From the IMG/VR virus record IMGVR_UViG_3300022222_000004, positions 1-49,079 of that record: a stretch of DNA of 49,079 nucleotides. One strand, 5' to 3'. The notes below the pieces were generated by a model. It searched no databases and was not told the origin of the DNA. It was given only the letters and a program-made list of their open reading frames with translations. Below, piece after piece: positions 7,368-36,591 of the stretch. Positions within the stretch are counted from its first letter, which is position 1. Every line of letters begins with the position of its first letter. The stretch comes from a virus. A program made the position numbers and the translations under genes.

Positions 7368-7595
7368 ATGAAAACCAAACAAGAACAAAAAGACCCAGCA
7401 CGGGAATCCTACTTTGCAATAACAGACCCAGCACGGGAATCCTACTTTGCAATAACAGACCCAGCACGGGAATCCTACTTTGCAATAACAGACCCAGCAC
7501 GGGAATCCTACTTTGCAATAACAGACCCAGCACGGAAAGCCTACCTAGCAAAGTGCGACGAGATAGACGCAAGTGAAGTAGTGGAGAAGACGTGA
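7368..7595 (+). CDS. Repeat protein with 11-residue DPARESYFAIT units
   Basis: A 75-residue protein made almost wholly of an 11-residue unit: four identical copies and one variant, then a short polar tail (KCDEIDASEVVEKT). Eleven residues is three turns of a slightly unwound helix (hendecad). The proline in every unit would kink such a helix. Similar units occur in the genes at 8958 and 10387. Function unknown. Near-identity at DNA level suggests recent expansion by recombination or slippage. Confidence 0.6.
   Translation: MKTKQEQKDPARESYFAITDPARESYFAITDPARESYFAITDPARESYFAITDPARKAYLAKCDEIDASEVVEKT
7392..7553 (+). repeat. 33-bp tandem repeat, 4 perfect copies plus 1 variant
   Basis: Units start at 7392, 7425, 7458 and 7491, with a diverged fifth at 7524-7553. 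They are in frame within the repeat-protein gene, so unit number can change without a frameshift. Confidence 0.95.
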
Positions 7596-8957: not shown

Positions 8958-9281
8958 ATGAAAAAACTAACTAAACAAGAAAAAAAAGACGAGGCATGGA
9001 AAGCCTACAAAGCAATACAAGTCCCAGCATGGGAATCCTACAATGCAATACAAGTCCCAGCAGAGGAAGCCTACAATGCAATACAAGTCCCAGCAGAGGA
9101 AGCCTACAAAGCAGTAGAAGCCCCAGCATGGAAAATCTACCTAGCAATACAAGCCCGAGCATTGAAAGTCTACCTAGCAATACAAGCCCCAGCATGGGAA
9201 TCCTACAATGCAATACAAGCTCCAGCATTGAAAGCCTACCTAGCAAGGCTCAAGGAGATAGACGAACAAGTGGAAAAATAA
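8958..9281 (+). CDS. Repeat protein with 11-residue PA..xYxAIQ units
   Basis: A 107-residue protein: an N-terminal MKKLTKQEKKDEA, then about eight 11-residue units of the type APAWESYNAIQ, then a short acidic tail. At DNA level the 33-bp units (about 8992-9247) are near-identical. The start has no Shine-Dalgarno site but carries the shared leader ACCTTTA(C/T)TTATATGAAAAA. Same family as the genes at 7368 and 10387. Function unknown. Confidence 0.6.
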   Translation: MKKLTKQEKKDEAWKAYKAIQVPAWESYNAIQVPAEEAYNAIQVPAEEAYKAVEAPAWKIYLAIQARALKVYLAIQAPAWESYNAIQAPALKAYLARLKEIDEQVEK

Positions 9282-9292
9282 CCTTTACTTAT

Positions 9293-9799
9293 ATGAAAAA
9301 ACTAACTAAATACTATTTCCATATCCACCACGAAGTACTGGTGGAGGCATTAACTGAACCTTTAAAAAATAGGATTAAATACATTAAGGAGAATAAACCA
9401 AAGGATGAGATTGAGTTAAGGTTAAGGCTTATCAAACCTGTCAAGGGTAAGTTACCTAGTGAGTTTATTAAAGCAGACCAAGCACGGGTTAAAGCATACC
9501 AAGCATTGGTTAAAGCACACCAAGCAAGGGCTAAAGCACACCAAGCATGGGTTAAAGCACACCAAGCATGGGAGAAAGCAGAACAAGCATGGGAGAAAGC
9601 AGTTCAAGCATACCAAGCACGGGCTAAAGCACACCAAGCATGGGATAAAGCAGACCAAGCATTTATTAAAGCAAACCAAGCATGGGTTAAAGCACTAAAA
9701 GATAGCATACCAGCTCTTGAGAAGTTACATAAAAAAGAATGTGGATGCGGGTGGAATGGAAAGACTATCTTTACTAAAGAGAATGGGTTGGAGAAATAA
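9293..9799 (+). CDS. Repeat protein with 7-residue KAHQAWV units
   Basis: A 168-residue protein. Residues 1-55 are non-repetitive. About 56-135 contain about eleven heptad-like units such as KAHQAWV and KADQARV, and the C-terminus has a CGCGWNG motif. Seven-residue periodicity suggests a long helix or coiled coil. The 21-bp DNA units (about 9466-9693) are very similar. It uses the shared leader; a longer frame from 8996 exists but overlaps the previous gene and is rejected. Confidence 0.6.
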   Translation: MKKLTKYYFHIHHEVLVEALTEPLKNRIKYIKENKPKDEIELRLRLIKPVKGKLPSEFIKADQARVKAYQALVKAHQARAKAHQAWVKAHQAWEKAEQAWEKAVQAYQARAKAHQAWDKADQAFIKANQAWVKALKDSIPALEKLHKKECGCGWNGKTIFTKENGLEK

Positions 9800-10859: not shown

Positions 10860-11591
10860 ATGAAAACAAACGTAGCAATTCTAGGTTCGGGGAAAATTTC
10901 TTGTGACCTACTAGTCAAAGTCAAACGAAGCAAATACTTAGAATGTATAATGTTTGCAGGACGAAATGAAAACTCGGCTGGTATCGCTTTTGCTAAATCT
11001 CTCAATACGCCTACCTCTACCAAGAGTATTGAGGGCGTACTTCTATCAAAAGCTGATATTGTATTTGATGCCACAACTGCACAAGCCCACAAACTACACG
11101 CCCCACGTCTTCGTGACAGGTTTGTAATCGACCTCACTCCTGCCAAACTCTTTCCTCTTTGTGTACCTGGTATTAGTAAAATTCCAACCAAAGGTGGGGT
11201 ATCGCTTGGAAGCTGTACAATTCAAGCCGTTATCCCAAAGTTAGCCAAAATAAAAAACCTAGAATATGTAGAGGTTGTAACAACTGTGGCTTCTGAGTCA
11301 GTTGGCATGGGGACAAGAGAAAATTTATCAGAGTATTTGGAAACCACCCAAAAGGCTATTCACGATTTTACAGGAGCAAAAGCTAAAAGTATTTTAATTA
11401 TCAATCCTTCGTTGCAAAGTATGTACAATACGATATATGCTATCAAGCGAGGGAGTAAAGACCCTTGGATTGTACACGCTGAGCTTCTTGGTTGCGGAGA
11501 CTATATAGATCCTCGTTTTGGGAACCTTGACGTTATGACAATTGCCGCAATTAACGTAGCTGAGGACTATGCAAAACATCAAAATATTTGA
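10860..11591 (+). CDS. Acylating aldehyde dehydrogenase, short MhpF/DmpF-like
   Basis: A 243-residue protein matching the acetaldehyde dehydrogenase (acylating) family: NAD-binding GSGKIS (9-14), IVFDATTAQAH (67-77), IDLTPA (90-95), the catalytic-type C119 in SLGSCTIQ, and a C-terminal GNLDVMT motif. Family enzymes convert an aldehyde and CoA to acyl-CoA using NAD and channel substrate from the partner aldolase, which is encoded next and overlaps by 23 bases. Usual length is about 310; the shortfall lies in the dimerisation region, with both ends kept. The substrate here is unknown, possibly a sugar-pathway intermediate. Confidence 0.75.
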   Translation: MKTNVAILGSGKISCDLLVKVKRSKYLECIMFAGRNENSAGIAFAKSLNTPTSTKSIEGVLLSKADIVFDATTAQAHKLHAPRLRDRFVIDLTPAKLFPLCVPGISKIPTKGGVSLGSCTIQAVIPKLAKIKNLEYVEVVTTVASESVGMGTRENLSEYLETTQKAIHDFTGAKAKSILIINPSLQSMYNTIYAIKRGSKDPWIVHAELLGCGDYIDPRFGNLDVMTIAAINVAEDYAKHQNI

Positions 11592-12573
11592 TTCAACCGA
11601 AAGAGATGGTCAACACGCAATACGTCACCAAATCACCAAATCCCAAATTAAGAACTATGCAAAACTTGTTGAAAAAACAGGAATATACGCTTTGGTTGTC
11701 GGGCATGGGAATGGGCTTGGGGCTAGCTCTATCCATCTTGGGCGTAGCTCTCTTAGTGATAGACAGATGCTCACCACCGCCAGACGTGAACTCAAATCAA
11801 CAAAGTTATGCGCTTTCGTCCTTCCAGGCTTCGCCACCCTCAAAGACATGGACATGGCAATCGCAGAAGGCGTTGACATCTTCCAAATCGCCAGCCATTG
11901 CACAGAAGCCACAGTCACCAAACAGTACATCGAGTATGCCAAGCGTAAAGGCAAAGAAGTCTACGGGGTCTTGATGATGAGCCATATGTTAGAAGGGTCA
12001 GAGTTACAGAAACAAGCGTACACTATGAAAAATTATGGCGTAGATGGTGTTTTTCTAATGGACAGCGCAGGTGCTTTATTGCCAGATGATGTTGGCGACA
12101 GGGTTTGTTATATGCGTGCGCCTGCTAGCGTAGGCTTCCATCCCCACAACAACTTAGGGCTTGCAGTAGCAAACGCGATAGCCGCAGTTGAATCAGGAGC
12201 ATCAATGATTGACGGTACAAGCAGAGGGTTAGGGGCAGGAGCTGGCAATTGTCCCTTAGAGGTGCTAGTGCCTGTACTACACAAGATGGGCTATTCTACT
12301 GGCATAAATGTAGAACGATTGTTCGACTGTGCCGACTATATTGCAAGCCAATTCCCCCCACAAGACCTTACCCCACTATCTATTACAAGCGGGTTAGAGG
12401 GTGTCTTCTCAGGATTTAAACCACATGTCCTAAAGGCGGCTAAGAAATACAAGGTAAATCCACACGAAGTTATGCGCCGACTCGGAAAAGAAAAGGTGGT
12501 TGCTGGTCAAGAAGATCAAATTCTCCAAGTAGCCAAGGACTTAAAAACAAATCCGATGGAGGCACTCTCGTAA
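11569..12573 (+). CDS. DRE-TIM aldolase, 4-hydroxy-2-oxovalerate aldolase-like
   Basis: A 334-residue protein, near usual length. DSTERDGQHAIRHQ (8-21) is the DRE-TIM signature with R-D, and H191/H193 in HPHNN are the metal-binding histidines. The family splits 4-hydroxy-2-oxoacids to pyruvate and an aldehyde, or runs in reverse. Its gene overlaps the dehydrogenase and meets the TPP gene at a TAATG junction. In this operon it may make or use a short 2-keto acid for the TPP enzyme; that is inference. Confidence 0.8.
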   Translation: MQNIKIFDSTERDGQHAIRHQITKSQIKNYAKLVEKTGIYALVVGHGNGLGASSIHLGRSSLSDRQMLTTARRELKSTKLCAFVLPGFATLKDMDMAIAEGVDIFQIASHCTEATVTKQYIEYAKRKGKEVYGVLMMSHMLEGSELQKQAYTMKNYGVDGVFLMDSAGALLPDDVGDRVCYMRAPASVGFHPHNNLGLAVANAIAAVESGASMIDGTSRGLGAGAGNCPLEVLVPVLHKMGYSTGINVERLFDCADYIASQFPPQDLTPLSITSGLEGVFSGFKPHVLKAAKKYKVNPHEVMRRLGKEKVVAGQEDQILQVAKDLKTNPMEALS

Positions 12574-13082
12574 TGAACGTATCAGAAAAGATAGTTAAAT
12601 ACTTAGAAAAGAAGGGTGTTAAATTTTGCTTCACCGTGGTCGGTGGTCATTCTATGTTTTTAAATGATGCACTCTTTCGCTCAAAGATCAAACCTATCTT
12701 TTGTCACCATGAACAAGCAGCAGGAATGGCTGCTGATGGCTATGCAAAAATAAATGGCTTAGGACTTGTAATGACCACGGCAGGCCCAGGAGTTTTAAAC
12801 GTATTTAGTGCGGTAGTTGGAGCATTGGCAGATTCCTCGCCAGTGATTGTTTTAAGTGGTGGAAACAACAGCCTCGAAATTGACTATATGCACAAGCACC
12901 GAATGAGGCAGGTGGGGTTACAAGGTGTAGACACAGAAGCCTTCGTTCCTCCTATTGTTAAAAAGTTCTACCAAGTAAAAGACGGTAGCGAAATCAAAGA
13001 AGCTTACGAACTTGCAACAAGTGATCGGAAAGGCCCGTGTTGGCTTGAGGTGAGTTTGGACGTGCAAAACAAAAGTGTTTAG
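12573..13082 (+). CDS. TPP-dependent enzyme, N-terminal (PYR) half of split gene
   Basis: A 169-residue protein equal to the pyrimidine-binding domain of acetolactate-synthase-like TPP enzymes: HHEQAAGMAADGYAK (45-59) with the cofactor-activating E47, TTAGPG (about 69-74), and the domain end GPCWLEVSLDVQ. It stops where the central domain would begin. The rest is encoded at 14584-15663 after a 1.5-kb insertion. The halves may assemble in trans, or the enzyme may be inactivated. In branched-sugar pathways (YerE type) such enzymes add a two-carbon unit to a keto sugar. Confidence 0.85.
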   Translation: MNVSEKIVKYLEKKGVKFCFTVVGGHSMFLNDALFRSKIKPIFCHHEQAAGMAADGYAKINGLGLVMTTAGPGVLNVFSAVVGALADSSPVIVLSGGNNSLEIDYMHKHRMRQVGLQGVDTEAFVPPIVKKFYQVKDGSEIKEAYELATSDRKGPCWLEVSLDVQNKSV

Positions 13083-13094
13083 TCTTCACATACC

Positions 13095-13124
13095 TTGACA
13101 TACACCCTCCATTGCTTTTAGAAT
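13095..13124 (+). promoter_or_regulatory. Promoter of inserted two-gene module
   Basis: TTGACA at 13095-13100, an 18-nt spacer and TAGAAT at 13119-13124, lying just after the stop of the TPP N-half. It gives the inserted genes their own transcription start, about 25 bases before their ribosome site. Confidence 0.65.
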
Positions 13125-13155
13125 ATAGTTATCTCAACCGAGGGAGGTGATTAAT

Positions 13156-13743
13156 ATTTCAGATGTACAAACAATTGATGTACCAGAGTTAGTTCCACAG
13201 CTTATCAAAGTTAAGTTAAAAGGCACAGCTCCTTTGATAATGCACAAATTTTCCCAAAAAGCAAAAATGCAAATGCTTGCTAAACAGCAAAAAAAGGTTA
13301 CTGAACGTGAAATTCGTGATCCTGAAAAGGAATACGAGGAATCCAAGTATCTTACTGCTGATGGCAAATTAGCTATTCCTGCGTTATGGGTCAAACTATC
13401 AATTGTTGATGCTGTAAGAAACGTAGATGGTCTTACAATGACCTTGGTACGTGGTGCAGTTTTCATTAGAGGTGATAAGGATGGACTTGTACCAGTAAAA
13501 TATAGTGAAGTACGAAACAGGGAAGATATAGTTCGTATTGGTAAAGGAAGTACAGATTTGCGTTATAGGGCAGAGCTTTTGGATTGGGAGTGTGATATTG
13601 AAATGACATTTAACCCTCACGTTCTTTCAGCAGAGCAAGTTCTTAATCTCTTAAAGATCGGTGGTTATTCCGTTGGACTTGGTGAGTGGCGACCTCAGAG
13701 AAATGGGGATTTTGGTACGTTCGAAGTCGCTAGTTTGAGGTAG
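13156..13743 (+). CDS. Array-associated protein A, unknown (RAMP-like by impression)
   Basis: A 195-residue protein. Features are LKGTAPLIMHKF (26-37), a charged helical region with EKEYEESKYL (56-65), a strand-rich middle and a C-terminal VGLGEWRPQRNGDFGTFEV (173-191). The Gly/Trp-Arg-Pro ending recalls a widespread uncharacterised phage family, with a loose resemblance to RAMP (Cas7/Cas6-type) RNA-binding folds. This is a memory-based impression, not a search result. GGGAGGTGA at 13142-13150 sits five bases before ATT 13156, matching the spacing before ATG 13882. GTG 13147 would overlap the ribosome site. Confidence 0.7.
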   Translation: MSDVQTIDVPELVPQLIKVKLKGTAPLIMHKFSQKAKMQMLAKQQKKVTEREIRDPEKEYEESKYLTADGKLAIPALWVKLSIVDAVRNVDGLTMTLVRGAVFIRGDKDGLVPVKYSEVRNREDIVRIGKGSTDLRYRAELLDWECDIEMTFNPHVLSAEQVLNLLKIGGYSVGLGEWRPQRNGDFGTFEVASLR

Positions 13744-13864
13744 GGCATGGCAGGTGAGGTGCGGTAAGGCAAGGTCTGGTGGGGTGCGGTGCGGCATGGC
13801 AGGTAAGGTGAGGTGCGGTCAGGTGCGGTCAGGTGGGGCGTGGCGAGGCATGGCAGGTAGGGTC
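13744..13864 (+). repeat. Degenerate GGYNN pentanucleotide array 1
   Basis: About 120 bases made almost wholly of 5-nt units GG(T/C)NN, punctuated by a 4-nt GGCA that usually follows GGCAT. The string GGCATGGCAGGT recurs at about 13744, 13793 and 13849. The strand is very G-rich and could form two-tier G-quadruplexes. It starts directly after the stop of protein A and ends just before the ribosome site of protein B. Confidence 0.95.
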
Positions 13865-13881
13865 GAAAGGAGGTGAAATAT

Positions 13882-14358
13882 ATGTCGATGATTAAATTAG
13901 CAGATAAATACTGGCAGGTTTTTAACGAGATTGAAGCTAAATCTTCAAATGGTGGTGTTCAAGCAAAAGACTTCGTTGATGCTTCTCGCCCAGAAGATGC
14001 ACCACTACACGATCAGTTCGAGTGGAATGATTCAAAAGCTGGCGAGGAGTGGAGAATACAGCAAGCTAGGGTAATGATGAGCTCTTACACAATAGAAAAT
14101 AATCCTAATGTTAGGGCTGTATCTCATGTTATTTATGAACTAGAAACAGGAGAGTCGGAACGGGCTTACTTTACTTACGCAACTATCCAATCAAGGCCAG
14201 AGTTAAAAAAAGCTTTTCTTAAACAGTTAAAAAAGAGTGTTGAGAGTATGAAAAGAAAATACGCAGACGCATTAAGTGTATATCATATTATCAATGAAAT
14301 TGAGCTGGAAAAATTAGGCAAAGAATTGGAAGCTGACGGTAGATATATTACAGTATAA
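13882..14358 (+). CDS. Array-associated protein B, unknown
   Basis: A 158-residue protein with a strong AAAGGAGGTGA site and ATG 13882. It has a KSSNGGVQAKDFVDASRP stretch (about 19-36), PLHDQFEWNDSKAGEEWR (about 40-57) and a strand-rich middle. It matches, from memory, an uncharacterised phage family with a conserved PLHxxFEWDDSxA motif. Flanked by GGYNN arrays on both sides and following protein A, so the pair and arrays form one unit. Confidence 0.75.
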   Translation: MSMIKLADKYWQVFNEIEAKSSNGGVQAKDFVDASRPEDAPLHDQFEWNDSKAGEEWRIQQARVMMSSYTIENNPNVRAVSHVIYELETGESERAYFTYATIQSRPELKKAFLKQLKKSVESMKRKYADALSVYHIINEIELEKLGKELEADGRYITV

Positions 14359-14360
14359 GT

Positions 14361-14582
14361 GGCAGGTAAGGTAAGGTAGGGTGCGGTGAGGTATGGCGAG
14401 GCGAGGCATGGCAGGTAAGGTGAGGTACGGTAAGCTGGGGTAGGGTCTGGTATGGCAGGTTTGGTGCGGCACGGTACGGAGAGTCAGGGTAAGGTGGGGT
14501 ACGGCAGGAAGGGAATGGTATGTTCCGTTATGGTGCGTTGAGGTATGTTAAGGAAAGGCGAGGTGCGGTATGGTCTGGCAGG
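14361..14582 (+). repeat. Degenerate GGYNN pentanucleotide array 2
   Basis: About 220 bases of GG(T/C)NN units with GGCA punctuation, as in array 1. It begins after the stop of protein B and runs up to the start of the TPP C-half. Order decays toward the 3' end, where GTTNN and GGANN units appear. Confidence 0.95.
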
Positions 14583-14583
14583 C

Positions 14584-15663
14584 ATGGAAAATATGCAATA
14601 CAGTAAACCTTTATTGATTTTAGGTAATGGCGCACGTGACGCAGGTGATTGGTGCAAGTTCGGTATCCCCATTGTCACAACACGACTAGGGTTAGACCTA
14701 ATTGAGTCTGACCACACTCTTTTCGCTGGCAGGTACGGTTTGTTTACTGATATTCCAAGTTATCTAGCGGTTAAAAATGCAGATTGGGTTTGTTGTATCG
14801 GTGCAAGACTTGACCCAGGCTTTGCATGGTACGATTACGCCAACTTTAAAACTGATGCCTACAAGATAGTGGTTGATATTGACAAGGATGAGCTTGCTAA
14901 GAGTAACGCTAATCAAAAATATGCTATCCCTGCAAAAGATTGGTGGGAACAATTCCCTTATCATTTTGATACTTCAATTCCTTTTGTAGCATGGTTAGAT
15001 CAAATCCACGCTTGGCAAAAGAAATACCCACTTAAACTAACAGGTTCTTACAAAGTAATCAGAGAAATATCCGATCAAGCGGACAAAGACGATGTAATAG
15101 TCGTGGACACCAGCTCTAGCTTCCACACCGCCGCCCAAATGTGGCAAATTAAAAAAGGTCAACGATATATCACCACAGGAGGTATATCTACGATGGGTTA
15201 CTGGCCTGCCGCTATCGGAGCGGCACTCGCTAGTGGTAGGCGGGTAATCTGTATCACAGGTGATGGGTGTCTGCAACAGAATATCCAAGAACTAGCAACA
15301 GTTGTTAAAAACAAACTAAACATAAAGATATTTGTACTTAACAACGATGGGTACTTGCTAATCCGTCACACCCAAAAGAAATACTTTGGCAGAGTAAATG
15401 GTGAATCACCTGCAACTGGGCTAGGGTTCCCCATCTTGTCAGAGATTGCCAGAGCTTATGGTATAGACTATTTTTGGACTTCTGTAGACAGGCGAAATTA
15501 TGCAGACAAGAAAGCAGAAGCTTTAACTCTTAAATATACGATTGAAGAAGCACTAGAGGGTAAAAGACCTGCACTAATTGAAATTAAAACTCCAAAATGG
15601 GAAGCTCCGCAAGGTCGCCTAGACTCGATTTCTAAACTGCCTATTGAAAACCAAACGTACTAA
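14584..15663 (+). CDS. TPP-dependent enzyme, C-terminal half of split gene
   Basis: A 359-residue protein (from ATG 14584) with the central domain (KPLLILGNGARDAG from residue 8) and the TPP-pyrophosphate domain: GDG at 226-228 and NN at 253-254, the GDG-x(24)-NN cofactor and Mg motif. Fused to 12573-13082 it would make a normal acetolactate-synthase-like enzyme of about 530 residues. The array runs into the start; the frame opens at ATG 14545 inside the array, and no clear ribosome site marks 14584. FAD-binding status is unclear. Confidence 0.85.
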   Translation: MENMQYSKPLLILGNGARDAGDWCKFGIPIVTTRLGLDLIESDHTLFAGRYGLFTDIPSYLAVKNADWVCCIGARLDPGFAWYDYANFKTDAYKIVVDIDKDELAKSNANQKYAIPAKDWWEQFPYHFDTSIPFVAWLDQIHAWQKKYPLKLTGSYKVIREISDQADKDDVIVVDTSSSFHTAAQMWQIKKGQRYITTGGISTMGYWPAAIGAALASGRRVICITGDGCLQQNIQELATVVKNKLNIKIFVLNNDGYLLIRHTQKKYFGRVNGESPATGLGFPILSEIARAYGIDYFWTSVDRRNYADKKAEALTLKYTIEEALEGKRPALIEIKTPKWEAPQGRLDSISKLPIENQTY

Positions 15664-15680
15664 GGCTTATAACTATAGGA

Positions 15681-16127
15681 GTGAACGCGTCCCAGATAGC
15701 CGAGGCACTTACCGCCTGTTTCAAACGAGGCAACAAAGTAATGATTATCGGCAACGGTGGTTCTGCCGCAGAAGCACAACACCTAGCCGCTGAGTTTCTT
15801 GGAACCTACGGTGGCAGGCAAACTCCACTCCCTGCAATCGCACTCACAACAGACACCTCAACAATAACGGCAATCGCAAACGACCTTGGCTTCAAAGAAA
15901 TCTTTGCAAGACAACTAATCGCACTTGGTAAACCAGGTGACATCCTCATTGGTATGTCAACATCTGGTGAGAGTGAGAACATTAACTATGCTTACGAGTG
16001 GGCAGAGAAGATGGACATTGAGGTAATAGACTTCCCCAGAGATGGCTACTCTGTAGCAGAAATACAGAACAAACACCTAGAACTAATCCATGACATTTGT
16101 AGCCTAGTCGGAGAAGAATTTGAATGA
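15681..16127 (+). CDS. gmhA: Sedoheptulose-7-phosphate isomerase-like SIS protein
   Basis: A 148-residue SIS-domain protein with GNGGSAAEAQH (24-34), ALTTDTSTITAIANDLGF (about 54-71) and STSGESENI (about 93-101), the GmhA pattern. GmhA turns sedoheptulose 7-phosphate into D-glycero-D-manno-heptose 7-phosphate. It is shorter than the usual 190 residues, with the N-terminal helix reduced. GTG 15681 is used as start although TAGGAG is only one base away. It overlaps the kinase gene (ATGA). Confidence 0.75.
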   Translation: MNASQIAEALTACFKRGNKVMIIGNGGSAAEAQHLAAEFLGTYGGRQTPLPAIALTTDTSTITAIANDLGFKEIFARQLIALGKPGDILIGMSTSGESENINYAYEWAEKMDIEVIDFPRDGYSVAEIQNKHLELIHDICSLVGEEFE

Positions 16128-17077
16128 AAATAATAGCACAAGCTCCCACCAGAATAGGGTTGTTTGGTGGAGGCACAGACACAGAACCATTTGCAAGCAC
16201 ACACGGTGGCATAGTCATCAACCTTGCCATTAACCTTAGACAGTACTTCACCCTCTACACAAAAGATAACATCTGGGACATCTCACAGAACACAGTACCT
16301 TACGGTTGTAGCCTAGACTTCGCTTACGCTTTCACAAAAGAGTTTGGCTTCGGGTCAATGCACCACTGTAAGTTCGAGTCAAGGTGTGACGATATAATTG
16401 AGTCAGGTCTGGGCTCATCGGCATCTGCTGGTGTTGCTATGGTAGCGGCCATGTCAAAAGCAAAAGATCAGAGTATGTCCAGAACAGAGATTGCAGAGAA
16501 AACATGGGAGATTGAAACACGAAAGCTTGGACTCTTTGGAGGTAAGCAAGACCAATATGCAGCTGCCTTTGGAGGACTGAACGTCTTTAAGTTCGGTCAT
16601 CACGTTGAGACACAACCATTTGACAAGAGAGCAGTAGAACAACTCCTACCTTCTCTGGTTCTGTTCCATACAAACATGAGAAGAAAGCGTGGGGATATCC
16701 AAGACTCTTTCAAACAGCCAACACCACCACAAATAGAAGCTCTGCACAAGATCAAAGAGCTGGCAATCCTCGCCATTCCTGCCATCGAAAGTGGAAACGT
16801 AGAGTATCTCGGACGACTACTAGATGAATCTTGGGAACTCAAAAAACAATCAAACGCAGGTGCAACCAACCCTAGAATAGATGCAATCTACACTACTGCC
16901 AAAGAACACGGAGCCTTGGGCGGTAAAATCTGTGGTGCAGGTGGTGGAGGGTTCATGTTCTTCATCATTGACCCAGGCAACAAACAAAACTTTGTTACCA
17001 AGATGACAAAGGAAGGTTTAGAGTGGCATGACTTTGGTGTTGACTATAACGGTTGTGAAACGAGGATACTCCCATGA
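16124..17077 (+). CDS. hddA: GHMP kinase, heptose-7-phosphate 1-kinase-like
   Basis: A 317-residue protein: APTRIGLFGGGTD near the N-terminus, the phosphate loop GLGSSAS at 95-101 and GGKICGAGGGGFMFF near the C-terminus. This is the HddA pattern: D-glycero-D-manno-heptose 7-phosphate to the 1,7-bisphosphate. It sits between GmhA-like and nucleotidyltransferase genes with four-base overlaps, as in GDP-heptose operons. The matching phosphatase (GmhB) is not seen in the window. Confidence 0.85.
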   Translation: MKIIAQAPTRIGLFGGGTDTEPFASTHGGIVINLAINLRQYFTLYTKDNIWDISQNTVPYGCSLDFAYAFTKEFGFGSMHHCKFESRCDDIIESGLGSSASAGVAMVAAMSKAKDQSMSRTEIAEKTWEIETRKLGLFGGKQDQYAAAFGGLNVFKFGHHVETQPFDKRAVEQLLPSLVLFHTNMRRKRGDIQDSFKQPTPPQIEALHKIKELAILAIPAIESGNVEYLGRLLDESWELKKQSNAGATNPRIDAIYTTAKEHGALGGKICGAGGGGFMFFIIDPGNKQNFVTKMTKEGLEWHDFGVDYNGCETRILP

Positions 17078-17661
17078 ACGCAGTTTTACTTGCAGGTGGA
17101 TATGGTAAACGCCTGCGACCCCTCACCTCTCGAAAGCAGAAATGCACCATTGAGATCGCAGGTAAACCTGTCATCCGTCACATAGTAGAAAGACTGATAG
17201 CGGTAGGGTTTGACGACATCTTGATCGTAGGTGGGTTTCTACATCAACAGGTAGAAGATGTATTGAAAGACTACGCTCGTATTAGGTTTTTTGTTAATTG
17301 GGATATGTCACCGACAGCTTGCTACCTAAAGGTGATATCAGATCAACTAGAAGATCCTTTTCTACTAACAAACGGTGATACGCTAACTGAGCTAAACCTA
17401 ATAGACTTCATAGAGTTTCACCTATCCAACAAAAACATAGCTACAGTATTCACTCACCACAATGCAATTCACTCAGGTGGCACTTACGTTTTTGACAAAG
17501 AGGCTCTAAACTACATAGAGGACGGAGACAATATCCCAGACCTCATGCAACACTTGATAGACAAAGAAATACCAATAAACCTTTACAAATCCCCCGACAA
17601 ATACTTTGACATTGGAGAACCTTACAAGCTAGAGAAAGCAAGAGAGTACTATGGAAAATAG
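17074..17661 (+). CDS. hddC: Sugar-1-phosphate nucleotidyltransferase, HddC-like
   Basis: A 195-residue protein with LAGGYGKRLRP (6-16), K23-type lysine after the loop and NGD at 100-102 for metal binding, typical of nucleotidyltransferases. By context it activates heptose 1-phosphate, probably with GTP; the nucleotide cannot be read from the sequence. It is shorter than most family members. It overlaps neighbours on both sides. Confidence 0.8.
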   Translation: MNAVLLAGGYGKRLRPLTSRKQKCTIEIAGKPVIRHIVERLIAVGFDDILIVGGFLHQQVEDVLKDYARIRFFVNWDMSPTACYLKVISDQLEDPFLLTNGDTLTELNLIDFIEFHLSNKNIATVFTHHNAIHSGGTYVFDKEALNYIEDGDNIPDLMQHLIDKEIPINLYKSPDKYFDIGEPYKLEKAREYYGK

Positions 17662-18880
17662 AGAAGTACTGGTTGGCCGCACCGTCTACGGAAAACCAGA
17701 AATAGATGCCGTACTCAAAGTCCTAGACGGTGGCTGGCTAGGTATCGGTAAATATGCTGACGAGTTCGAAAAAAGAGTAGCCAAGTACGTTGGACACAAG
17801 TACGGTATTGTCACCAACTCAGGGTCATCTGCCCTACTTCTTGCTGTACAAGCACTAAACCTTCCCAACCGCTCAAAGGTAATCGTTTGTGCCGCAGGCT
17901 TCCCAGCTACAGTAGCACCAATATTACACGCTGGACTCATCCCCGTCTTTGTAGATGCTGAACTAACTAGTTACTCCATAAATCCAACTCAAATAGAAAG
18001 AGCTCTAGAGTCTCACCCAGACACCCGTGCCATTGTCTTTGCTCACACAGTAGGGAATGTAGCCAACATGGACAAGATCATGGCACTAGCCAAGAAGCAC
18101 GAACTCAAGGTTGTAGAAGATATCTGTGACGCTCTGGGTGCTAAATGGCACGGCTGGCAAGTAGGTTCATTCGGTGATGTTGCGTGTCTATCGTTCTACC
18201 CAAGCCACCACATTACAGCAGGTGGGCTAGGAGGTATGTTACTTACAAGTGACGACAAGATTGCAACAGACGCTATCTCACTTAGAGACTGGGGAAAAAT
18301 GCACCGCACACCAACGTACTATGACACCTACAACACAGACGAGAAGAACTTTACAAAACTAGACGGCATCAACTACGACTATAGGTACTCCTACTCACAC
18401 GTTGGGTATAACCTCAAGCCAAGTGACATCAACTGTGCCTTTGGACTAGCACAAATGGATCGACTGGAGAGCTTCGTACAAAAGAGAAACGCTAACCATG
18501 CACAACTCAAAGCTTTCTTTGACAGATTTCCTCACACCTTTGTACCAACCACACAACACCCCCAAGCTACACCCTCATGGTTTAACTATCCTGTGGTAGT
18601 CAAAGACCTTGCTCCCTTTAGTCGTGACTCCTTAGTAAAGTTCCTAGAGAGCAAAAAGGTACGTTGCAGACTATTCTTTGCAGGTAACATAACAAGACAC
18701 CCTGCATTTAAGGGTAAGGGTATAGTTGTGGGTGACTTATCAGTATCAGACTTTCTAATGAAAAACGCTTTCTTGATAGCCTGTCACCCAGCACTCACCC
18801 AAGAGGACATAGACTACATAAAAGAATCAGTAAGTGAGTTTCTTGACTCTCCCGCGAAGGAGATTCCTTTCGCTTACTAA
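17651..18880 (+). CDS. DegT-fold sugar 3-dehydratase, ColD/RfbH-like
   Basis: A 409-residue fold-type I PLP protein. In SFYPSHHITAGG the position of the aminotransferase lysine is H186, and motifs such as DICDALG, YSHVGYNL and CRLFFAGNI fit RfbH/E1 and ColD better than aminotransferases. RfbH-type enzymes have cysteines for a 2Fe-2S cluster after RDWG; here that stretch (MHRTPTYYDTYNTD) has none, as in ColD. It should remove the 3-hydroxyl of a nucleotide 4-keto sugar. This makes a 3-deoxy sugar the likely product. Confidence 0.8.
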   Translation: MENREVLVGRTVYGKPEIDAVLKVLDGGWLGIGKYADEFEKRVAKYVGHKYGIVTNSGSSALLLAVQALNLPNRSKVIVCAAGFPATVAPILHAGLIPVFVDAELTSYSINPTQIERALESHPDTRAIVFAHTVGNVANMDKIMALAKKHELKVVEDICDALGAKWHGWQVGSFGDVACLSFYPSHHITAGGLGGMLLTSDDKIATDAISLRDWGKMHRTPTYYDTYNTDEKNFTKLDGINYDYRYSYSHVGYNLKPSDINCAFGLAQMDRLESFVQKRNANHAQLKAFFDRFPHTFVPTTQHPQATPSWFNYPVVVKDLAPFSRDSLVKFLESKKVRCRLFFAGNITRHPAFKGKGIVVGDLSVSDFLMKNAFLIACHPALTQEDIDYIKESVSEFLDSPAKEIPFAY

Positions 18881-19602
18881 TGAAAGTACTACTAACAGCA
18901 GGCAACAGCTTCATCGCTCGTAACCTCAAAGAGCAACTTGTAGACTGTGACATTACAGCACCAGACAAAAAACAACTAGACCTATTGGACAGTAAGAAAG
19001 TACACAAATTCTTCAAGGGTCATCACTTTGACGTTGTAGTTCACACCGCTTGTGTTGGTGGGAGGAGCTTGGGTGAACCAGAGTCAGTATTTCACGACAA
19101 CATAGCTATGTTTGAGAACCTATTGGCAAACAAAGAGCACTATGACAGGCTAATCAACATAGGTTCAGGTGCAGAGTACAACAAAGCAGAATCAATCATG
19201 GGTGTAGACGAGACATTTGACAGACCACCCAGAGATCCTTATGGTCTTGCCAAGTATGCCATTGGACAAACAATAGAGAAACTATACTTTGCAGTAAACC
19301 TTAGATGTTTTGGTGTTTGGGGAAAGTACGAAAAGAAGGACAGATTCCCTGCTGTTTGCCACAGGTTGAACCCTATACCAGTAACCGAGCTAACAATGTC
19401 ATACATAAAGGCTAGTGACCTGACAAGGGTAGTTCAGTGGGCGTTTGGACAGACAGAATATAACACTTACAACGTAGGGACACGGATTAGACTATCAGAC
19501 TTTGCAAAACAACTAGCTCCCAAAAGTGAGTTGGTCATTAAAGGTCATGGACTAGACTATTGGGGTGATGAGTCCAGATTGTTAAATGAATTCAAATACT
19601 AA
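18880..19602 (+). CDS. SDR nucleotide-sugar epimerase/reductase
   Basis: A 240-residue extended SDR. The nucleotide loop is TAGNSFIARNL (6-16), a variant without the usual three glycines. NIGSGAEY supplies the serine region and YGLAK the YxxxK pair. It resembles GDP-fucose synthase/RmlD-type enzymes that epimerise or reduce 4-keto sugars. As the last enzyme of the operon it probably finishes the deoxy or branched sugar. Exact reaction unknown. Confidence 0.75.
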   Translation: MKVLLTAGNSFIARNLKEQLVDCDITAPDKKQLDLLDSKKVHKFFKGHHFDVVVHTACVGGRSLGEPESVFHDNIAMFENLLANKEHYDRLINIGSGAEYNKAESIMGVDETFDRPPRDPYGLAKYAIGQTIEKLYFAVNLRCFGVWGKYEKKDRFPAVCHRLNPIPVTELTMSYIKASDLTRVVQWAFGQTEYNTYNVGTRIRLSDFAKQLAPKSELVIKGHGLDYWGDESRLLNEFKY

Positions 19603-34589: not shown

Positions 34590-35414
34590 ATGACCGTTAT
34601 AAAGAAAAAACCTCTAGCAATACTTGTAACTGGCATTGGAGACACTTACTACAATTACTCCGTTAAAATGCTCAACTCCCTCAAAAAGACCAACCCCAAT
34701 ATCGAAAAGAAAGCCGACATAATTCTAATGACGCAAAAGGAGTTTGCCCAAAAAGGTGGTACTCCACGCGAGATGTTGTACATGACCCCTTGGTTTGCCG
34801 CTGATCTCATCAAACAGTACGACTGCGTAGTCAGACTCGACTCTGACATGATAATCACAGGAGACATCAGCCACGTTTGGGAGGGCGATTTTGACGTTGC
34901 AGTAGTACAGAACGGCAATCCTCGCGAGATGGTAGCGCAACAACAATCTATGGGTAAGCTCGTACAAGTTTGGGACATCAAAGGCTTAGAGGAGTATGTT
35001 AACTGTGGTTTTGTTGTTATGAAGTCAGAGGAATTTGTAAACCACTGGTTATCCATGTGTACCCCTGAAAGACAAAACACTTACCAATTCTACGAACAAG
35101 ATTTTCTCAACATTCTCTGTTTCTACGGGAACTACAAGGTCAGGTTCTTGGACAAGGAAGCAAACAACAAGTGGCACGGACTTATTGCCAAAGGTTACTA
35201 TTCTGAGGCTATTCTAAAGGACAAAAAACTCATTCTGCCAAACAAATCAGGTGCAGAGTTTGATATGTGGCCGATAGACGGTGACAAAGAAATTGTCTGT
35301 ATTCACATCGCAGGCGGAAATTCCCCAAGTAAGTTTGACGGCCTTGCGAAGTTTTTTCAGCCAGAGGTACATAACTATATTCAGTTCTTACTTTCCAATG
35401 ACCAAAAGACGTGA
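34590..35414 (+). CDS. Glycosyltransferase, GT-A type
   Basis: A 274-residue protein with the GT8-like order: AILVTGIGDTYY at the start, YDCVVRLDSDMI with a DSD motif (about 74-86) for metal-nucleotide binding, and YEQDFLNILCFYG (about 167-179). It transfers a sugar from a nucleotide donor. It overlaps the next glycosyltransferase and lies among virion genes, so virion or host-surface glycosylation is suggested. Acceptor unknown. Confidence 0.75.
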   Translation: MTVIKKKPLAILVTGIGDTYYNYSVKMLNSLKKTNPNIEKKADIILMTQKEFAQKGGTPREMLYMTPWFAADLIKQYDCVVRLDSDMIITGDISHVWEGDFDVAVVQNGNPREMVAQQQSMGKLVQVWDIKGLEEYVNCGFVVMKSEEFVNHWLSMCTPERQNTYQFYEQDFLNILCFYGNYKVRFLDKEANNKWHGLIAKGYYSEAILKDKKLILPNKSGAEFDMWPIDGDKEIVCIHIAGGNSPSKFDGLAKFFQPEVHNYIQFLLSNDQKT

Positions 35415-36591
35415 TTTAAAACTTATCTTCCACGGTGACGCGATTTTTAGTCAGTCGGGCTATTCGGTTGAGCTAGATTGGCTCATCAGACGTTTCATGC
35501 TCGAAGGCTTCCAAGTAGCACAAGCGGCAAAAGCTGGACTTCACGGGCATTGGATAGATTACCGCATAGACGAAGGTACACTTCGAATGTACCCTGGAAT
35601 TGGTGATCCGCACGGCTCAGACACCATGTTCTATGGTGCAAGACACTTTGGGGCTAATGTAGCAATCTCAATGATAGACGCTTGGGTGGTTGACCCACAG
35701 TGGATAAATAACCTCCATTCCATAGGTTGTAAGTGGATACCCTACCTTCCGATTGACTCAGACCCACCAGCTCCTGGAACTCTTAGAGTTCTTCCCTTTG
35801 CAGATAAAATTATCACCTTCTCTAAGTTTGGACAAAAACAACTGTTAAAGCATGGTTTTGTCGCAGATATGTTTTACGAAGGAGTAGACGTAAACCAACT
35901 CAAAGCAGTAGACAAAATGGAAGCAAGAAAAAAGATTGGTGTACCTACCGATTGTTTTCTTTGGGGAATGATAGCCGCCAACAAAGAGAATCCGCCAAGA
36001 AAAGGATTCCAAGAGGCACTGGAAGGATTTAAGATGTTTGCCGATATGCACCCCGAAGCTAGACTGTTTATCGAAACTCAACAAGTTGCACCAGGCAATT
36101 TCCCCATACAAGAGTACGCTAAACACTTGGGGATACTAGAAAAGCTATTCTTTGCAGATCAATTGTTTGCCGCCCACCTCTCAACGCGGGAAGACGCAGT
36201 TCTTTGGTTTAGCGCATTTGACGCACTACTACACCCAAGCCAAACGGAAGGCTTTGGATTGACAATTATTGAGGCACAAGCGATTGGTAAACCTGTTGTA
36301 ATCCACGATATACACTCAATGCCAGAGTTGATTATTGAAGGTAAGACAGGAGAAGCTGCACGCACAGCTTCACGCAGATGGACAAGTGCACTTTCCTTCT
36401 GGGAAGTACCAGACCCCATGAGTATTTTTGTTGCAATGCAAAAAACGTACTTGAGGCTAATGGATAACCCAGCACAGGTTGCAAAAGACTGTCGTGAGAA
36501 CGTGGTTAAAAACTTCAACATAGACACAATCTTTAGGGAAAAGTGGTTGCCATACATTTTAAAACTCCAAGATGAAATCTTACCTGTATGA
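35398..36591 (+). CDS. Glycosyltransferase, GT4/GT-B type
   Basis: A 397-residue protein. The C-terminal motif LHPSQTEGFGLTIIEAQAIG (about 278-297) with its two glutamates is the GT4 donor-site signature. The N-terminal half carries an HGDAIFSQSGYS loop (11-22). ATG 35398 is chosen; the longer frame from 35281 overlaps the previous gene too far. Works with the partner at 34590, possibly using the sugar made by the 10.9-19.6 kb operon. Confidence 0.8.
   Translation: MTKRRDLKLIFHGDAIFSQSGYSVELDWLIRRFMLEGFQVAQAAKAGLHGHWIDYRIDEGTLRMYPGIGDPHGSDTMFYGARHFGANVAISMIDAWVVDPQWINNLHSIGCKWIPYLPIDSDPPAPGTLRVLPFADKIITFSKFGQKQLLKHGFVADMFYEGVDVNQLKAVDKMEARKKIGVPTDCFLWGMIAANKENPPRKGFQEALEGFKMFADMHPEARLFIETQQVAPGNFPIQEYAKHLGILEKLFFADQLFAAHLSTREDAVLWFSAFDALLHPSQTEGFGLTIIEAQAIGKPVVIHDIHSMPELIIEGKTGEAARTASRRWTSALSFWEVPDPMSIFVAMQKTYLRLMDNPAQVAKDCRENVVKNFNIDTIFREKWLPYILKLQDEILPV

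Follow-up and report, generated by a model that had tools for sequence, protein, structure and literature searches.

A probable VIPR system with GGCA-punctuated arrays in an uncultivated tailed phage

Two genes and two repeat arrays carried by an uncultivated tailed phage constitute, with a probability that we put at about 90%, a VIPR system, including the guide action proposed for it below. The window, meaning the whole stretch of DNA analyzed, comprises all 49,079 bases of an IMG/VR virus record and encodes the tailed-phage genes for a terminase, a CHAP lysin, and a primase zinc finger. The module lies at 13.1 to 14.6 kb on the plus strand, where a predicted promoter, gene A, array 1, gene B, and array 2 follow one another head to tail. 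VIPR has been described as a Vipr protein acting with vrRNAs of 9 to 16 YNNGG repeats (PMC13142463; bioRxiv, April/June 2026). Through its NN pairs the vrRNA recognizes double-stranded DNA, passing over one base, usually the wobble base, between pairs; the complex represses transcription and can do so on either strand of any gene (PMC13142463). For the SUSP1 and P. fulva types, the reported evidence covers expression of the RNAs, their binding by Vipr, the one-base skip, and repression, and in SUSP1 function was abolished when NN was scrambled with GGY kept (PMC13142463). In the window, a Vipr-family protein with a RAMP fold is encoded beside GGY/NN arrays whose NN positions are hypervariable and whose predicted guides span 8 to 14 units; since these are the sequence-level marks of VIPR, the locus is assigned to that system. 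By analogy with the published types, the arrays of the window would act through guide RNAs. A sequence-only reading of this DNA had proposed the module as an undescribed system, a claim overtaken by the publication of VIPR in April 2026 (PMC13142463). New here are this member, the account of a GGCA/B branch, and a natural target predicted among cultured phages.

Layout of the locus and identity of gene A

As the sequence-only reading had noted, the module is preceded by a predicted promoter. This site, TTGACA-18-TAGAAT (13095 to 13124, plus strand), agrees with the consensus at 11 of 12 positions. Promoter-like sites in the region were no more numerous than in shuffled sequence, so only the quality and place of the 13095 site count. 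Also borne out were the order and single direction of the parts and their placement between the halves of a TPP enzyme gene. Upstream lies its N-terminal part (12573 to 13082, plus strand; Pfam TPP_enzyme_N, E = 2.8e-31), and downstream its C-terminal part (14584 to 15663, plus strand; Pfam TPP_enzyme_M and TPP_enzyme_C), with acetolactate synthase relatives; the ATG of the latter, at 14584, falls within the last units of array 2. In single-gene relatives, merely 33 to 40 codons or so separate the two matches, so the module occupies the linker that joins the PYR domain to the central domain. Judged by these domain matches, the two flanking parts are the halves of an acetolactate-synthase-like gene, which insertion of the module may have split.

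The two-part gene belongs to a sugar-modification-like cluster. From 10860 to 19602, genes of sugar and acid metabolism include an acetaldehyde dehydrogenase-like gene, a DmpG-like aldolase, the split TPP enzyme, and a SIS isomerase, followed, by the look of their sequences, by a kinase, a nucleotidyltransferase, an aminotransferase, and a reductase; this run is perhaps a surface-sugar or heptose pathway. Elsewhere in the window, three tandem repeats with units of 33 or 21 bp, at 7391 to 7551, 8994 to 9246, and 9468 to 9695, are unrelated to GGYNN, and repeats within 8958 to 9799 encode repetitive peptides (AYNAIQVPA- and AWVKAHQ-type) in overlapping frames. ARAGORN calls a tRNA-Arg (tcg) at 35548 to 35636, within a glycosyltransferase open reading frame (35281 to 36591); either the call is false or the glycosyltransferase gene begins further in.

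Gene A (13147 to 13743, plus strand; 198 amino acids; PHROG 4652) has an uncertain start codon, because the GTG abuts its own Shine-Dalgarno sequence. Searches of Pfam and NCBIfam did not place A in any family, and single-sequence searches for loci related to A or B returned almost nothing because the two proteins are too divergent. A profile was built from 83 A homologues. Compared with solved proteins, it had a sole convincing match, the SUSP1 Vipr protein (PDB 36pp; E = 1.2e-38; 176 of 182 positions), and hhalign of A against SUSP1 Vipr gave a probability of 99.9% at 22% identity. The AlphaFold model of A (pLDDT, 96) retrieved Csm3 and Cas7-like RAMP subunits in a fold search (best E = 2e-7; identity, 7 to 16%). 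At the C terminus is a conserved glycine-rich stretch, VGLGEWRPQRNGDFGTFEV in the window, which fits the expectation for a RAMP G-loop. By profile and predicted model, A is thus a Vipr-family protein with a RAMP fold. The loose RAMP-like look that the sequence-only reading had seen in A is in this way substantiated, and prediction of A alone yielded no unrelated enzyme fold that would have removed the idea. Its suggestion that A covers the array RNA unit by unit likewise agrees, by analogy, with the published VIPR complex (PMC13142463).

Array grammar and linkage to gene A

Array 1 (13739 to 13865, plus strand; 127 bp) parses into 26 units with three GGCA marks, and array 2 (14361 to 14590, plus strand; 230 bp) into 41 units with five. 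A search for six GGY units in succession gave 16 exact matches, all of them in the two arrays on the plus strand, versus 0 in 100 dinucleotide shuffles. The 5-nt arrays had been described as (GGYNN)n; this was right as to period, but the arrays are not plain, since the 4-nt GGCA unit interrupts them. It marks off six predicted guides, two in array 1 (9 and 10 pentamers) and four in array 2 (9, 8, 9, and 14). The boundary rule, GGCA to GGCA, is taken from the target match of phage Pipp given below. Between GGCA marks in array 1 lie the predicted guides g1 (13753 to 13797; NN = GA GC AA AA CT GG GC GC AT) and g2 (13802 to 13851; NN = AA GA GC CA GC CA GG GT GA AT). Array 2 would hold, within putative boundaries, g3 (14365 to 14409; NN = AA AA AG GC GA AT GA GA AT), g4 (14414 to 14453; NN = AA GA AC AA GG AG CT AT), g5 (14458 to 14502; NN = TT GC AC AC GA AG AA GG AC), and g6 (14507 to 14576; 14 units), all on the plus strand. 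One unit each of g4 and g5 and several of g6, perhaps a decayed or fused guide, are without GG; this loss of GG from several array 2 pentamers counts against the VIPR reading, as does the fact that no 3' tail of the SUSP1 vrRNA kind was recognized. Distances from GGCA to GGCA are mostly 4 modulo 5, the most frequent values including 44, 49, 54, 59, and 64 nt.

The linkage of A to such arrays was examined from both sides. A pattern of nine consecutive perfect GGY units in DNA retrieved at least 119 stretches from IMG/VR; among the 119 listed, 90 had an A homologue by the iterated profile, in 88 cases on the array strand; the median distance between A and array was 45 bp. From the A side, tblastn of a phage collection gave 36 records, and GGY arrays lay near A in all seven loci first examined, upstream of it in Donkeykong. 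Among 22 control loci drawn from other patterns, one had A, and that contig carried arrays too. These results support the earlier claim that proteins and arrays form one system; neither A without arrays (7/7 with) nor arrays without A (90/119 listed with) was the usual finding. Among the matches listed, 29 array stretches were without A, several of them with the array at a contig or locus end, and the remaining A-less loci may hold a more divergent Vipr. Clear GGY arrays lie well inside the locus in L016, L028, L036, L060, L121, and others, with no A found by profile. L020 and L070 are the sole loci with A and the called array on opposite strands, and their called arrays are short.

A tree of 94 Vipr proteins, whose deep forks are only moderately supported, places the window Vipr in a group of 39, of which 31 have GGCA-punctuated arrays; SUSP1 Vipr belongs to the opposite half. 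Guides of this branch are mostly 8 to 12 pentamers between GGCA units, and B is usually carried.

Gene B (13882 to 14358, plus strand; PHROG 15946) is a candidate vipr accessory protein. A strong ribosome site, AAAGGAGGTG, precedes its ATG at 13882, and an upstream GTG at 13873 falls inside the Shine-Dalgarno sequence. Among the matches listed, B was never seen without A and was present in 26 of 90 A-bearing array loci. Within the tree set, it occurred mostly with GGCA-punctuated arrays (25/33 versus 6/57; Fisher P = 4e-10). Of the proposal that A, B, and arrays are one system, A therefore stands as the core partner of the arrays, whereas B, at 26/90, is a putative accessory of one branch. No similarity of B to SUSP1 vap1 could be detected. 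Its model (pLDDT, 91) gave weak fold matches of the winged-helix kind, in line with the remark that several vap products are predicted DNA binders (PMC13142463). B is probably a helper of the GGCA branch and perhaps binds DNA. The two PHROG families, 4652 and 15946, so far of no assigned function, gain meaning from these assignments.

Guide targets and alternative readings

The NN positions are hypervariable: nine pairs of loci whose vipr DNA is 61 to 88% identical had no run of six NN in common. Among six phasings, NN composition best fits codon positions 1 and 2 of the sense strand, as it should if the wobble base is the one skipped, although composition alone is weak evidence. In an all-versus-all guide search over the fetched loci, the one-base skip was only slightly overrepresented.

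With skips of 0 to 3 allowed, guides taken from seven phages of Gordonia and Mycobacterium were matched against the early regions and immunity regions of phages related to them. The best match joined a Pipp guide (AC AT TC CC TT CG AC GT AG GC; L008:3724-3773) to gp46 of PhrostedPhlake at 19 of 20 bases. It appeared under skip 1 only, and all skipped bases are wobble bases of gp46. It starts right after one GGCA and stops at the next, and this exact fit is a first hint that GGCA is a guide boundary. The gp46 gene lies in the early operon beside an HTH regulator; PhrostedPhlake, a Jujuvirus, has the same host as Pipp and does not figure in the set of records that matched A. About 0.001 such matches would be expected in the search with uniform bases, a figure that skewed base makeup may raise several-fold, and shuffled guides reached local scores of 13 to 14 versus 17 for the Pipp match. 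DNA similarity between Pipp and PhrostedPhlake breaks off inside the target site, so Pipp would spare itself. Judged by this one sequence match, gp46 is a likely natural target of the Pipp guide, a lead with good odds rather than proof, and a concrete predicted pair that can be tested by ordinary phage work. A match of Ecliptus to ODay, 15 consecutive bases, was weaker, and the other guides of the seven actinophages had no clear targets in the fetched regions. That only one clear target emerged in the branch counts against the VIPR reading.

For the guides of the window, large collections were searched for exact matches. Guides g2 and g5 had no match in IMG/VR, and four matches of g2 in bacterial genomes, in unrelated genes, were rejected. 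The matches of g1 were rejected also, at 4 versus 41 for shuffled g1; because of this shuffle control, a g1 match in the VIPR-carrying contig L131 was judged to be chance. The 14 matches of g3, most of which fall in a single conserved family of phage proteins, were not accepted as targets either. No target is claimed for any of the six guides, which counts against the VIPR reading. The L131 contig, a chance find of the g1 scan, is a GC-rich viral contig of 84 kb with a Vipr and five discrete arrays (L131:7466-9164).

Could the same machinery be aimed at the phage's own genes or those of its host, as regulation, rather than at rival phages? Repression on either strand of any gene would permit this. 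We consider it unlikely, as no self-target of the guides was found in the window, the sole likely target in the branch sits in a rival phage, and the natural VIPR targets mapped so far are mostly satellites and prophages (PMC13142463).

Block lengths, mostly 44 to 64 nt, also recall an RNA wrapped around a TRAP-like ring of A, serving as an attenuator or protein sponge in which NN carries no information. In their 5-nt period and their 10 to 11 or so units per block, the arrays resemble TRAP sites. This ring was the first model and was dropped after the Vipr match; A has the Vipr/RAMP fold and not that of TRAP, and both the hypervariable, codon-like NN and the 19/20 target of the Pipp guide speak against it, making it very improbable.

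That the arrays are functionless G-rich repeats expanding by slippage next to A, some read as junk open reading frames as in the GC-rich phage annotations UmaThurman gp40 and Pipp gp43, is scarcely credible, since the window arrays are rich in TAA, TGA, and TAG, strand and distance to A are constrained (88/90 loci among the matches listed), and variation is confined to NN.

Arrays do stand in GenBank as protein genes, at L002:3625-3948 (UmaThurman gp40), at L008:3611-3880 (Pipp gp43), and in part of L005:2456-2842 (Donkeykong gp48); all three are probable misannotations.

Proposed mechanism and relation to known systems

We propose that the VIPR locus of the window is most likely transcribed from the 13095 promoter and that its two arrays would give rise to six short guide RNAs. 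Along each guide, subunits of Vipr (A) would line up and grip the GGY triplets, and the exposed NN pairs would base-pair with double-stranded DNA in three-base steps, one base being skipped, usually the codon wobble base. Such pairing would block transcription of chosen genes, probably those of competing phages or satellites. B probably helps in this branch, perhaps by binding DNA. The sequence-only model of one system with a RAMP-like coat thus holds in part; what it lacked was the guide function, with NN specifying a DNA target. More tentatively, and with the odds somewhat against it, the GGCA/B branch may be a VIPR variant that produces guides in a manner of its own, in which back-to-back guides of about 8 to 12 pentamers occupy untranslated gaps of the vipr-B operon, GGCA replaces the 3' tail as boundary, and B is a dedicated factor.

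VIPR is a newly described example of PAM-free, RNA-guided DNA recognition, proposed to be older than CRISPR. With this locus it gains a divergent member, carried by an uncultivated phage, and the GGCA/B branch to which the locus belongs is present in cultured Gordonia and Mycobacterium phages. With the CRISPR RAMPs (Csm3/Cas7), A has in common an RRM-like RAMP fold and a glycine-rich C-terminal loop. Unlike CRISPR, the window has no repeat-spacer array, only arrays of 5-nt period, and VIPR guide pairing is noncontiguous. No cas family was found among the neighboring and main window proteins scanned, and in arrays and scanned proteins alike the locus does not look like class 1 CRISPR-Cas.

The VIPR paper names seven types, accessory genes vap1 to vap6, and several array forms, one of them "staggered arrays with overlapping vrRNAs" (fig. 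S18, PMC13142463). The GGCA-punctuated arrays of the window are possibly this same form, the two being likened by name only. The SUSP1 system (type II, PDB 36pp) resembles the window in its homologous Vipr, in GGY/NN arrays that flank vipr on the same strand, and in an accessory gene directly downstream, for which B is the candidate in the window. Its arrays, however, are single runs with a 3' tail, whereas those of the window are back-to-back guides punctuated by GGCA, and the type II features of vap1 and discrete tailed vrRNAs were not recognized in the window locus. Similar in plan are the Gordonia phages UmaThurman, Pipp, and Ecliptus and the cyanophage Cy-LDV1, which have the A-array-B order and GGCA marks of the window. 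Their A proteins are about 41 to 43% (Gordonia phages) and 28% (Cy-LDV1) identical to that of the window, but their guides are wholly unlike its own, and their loci occupy a different genomic place.
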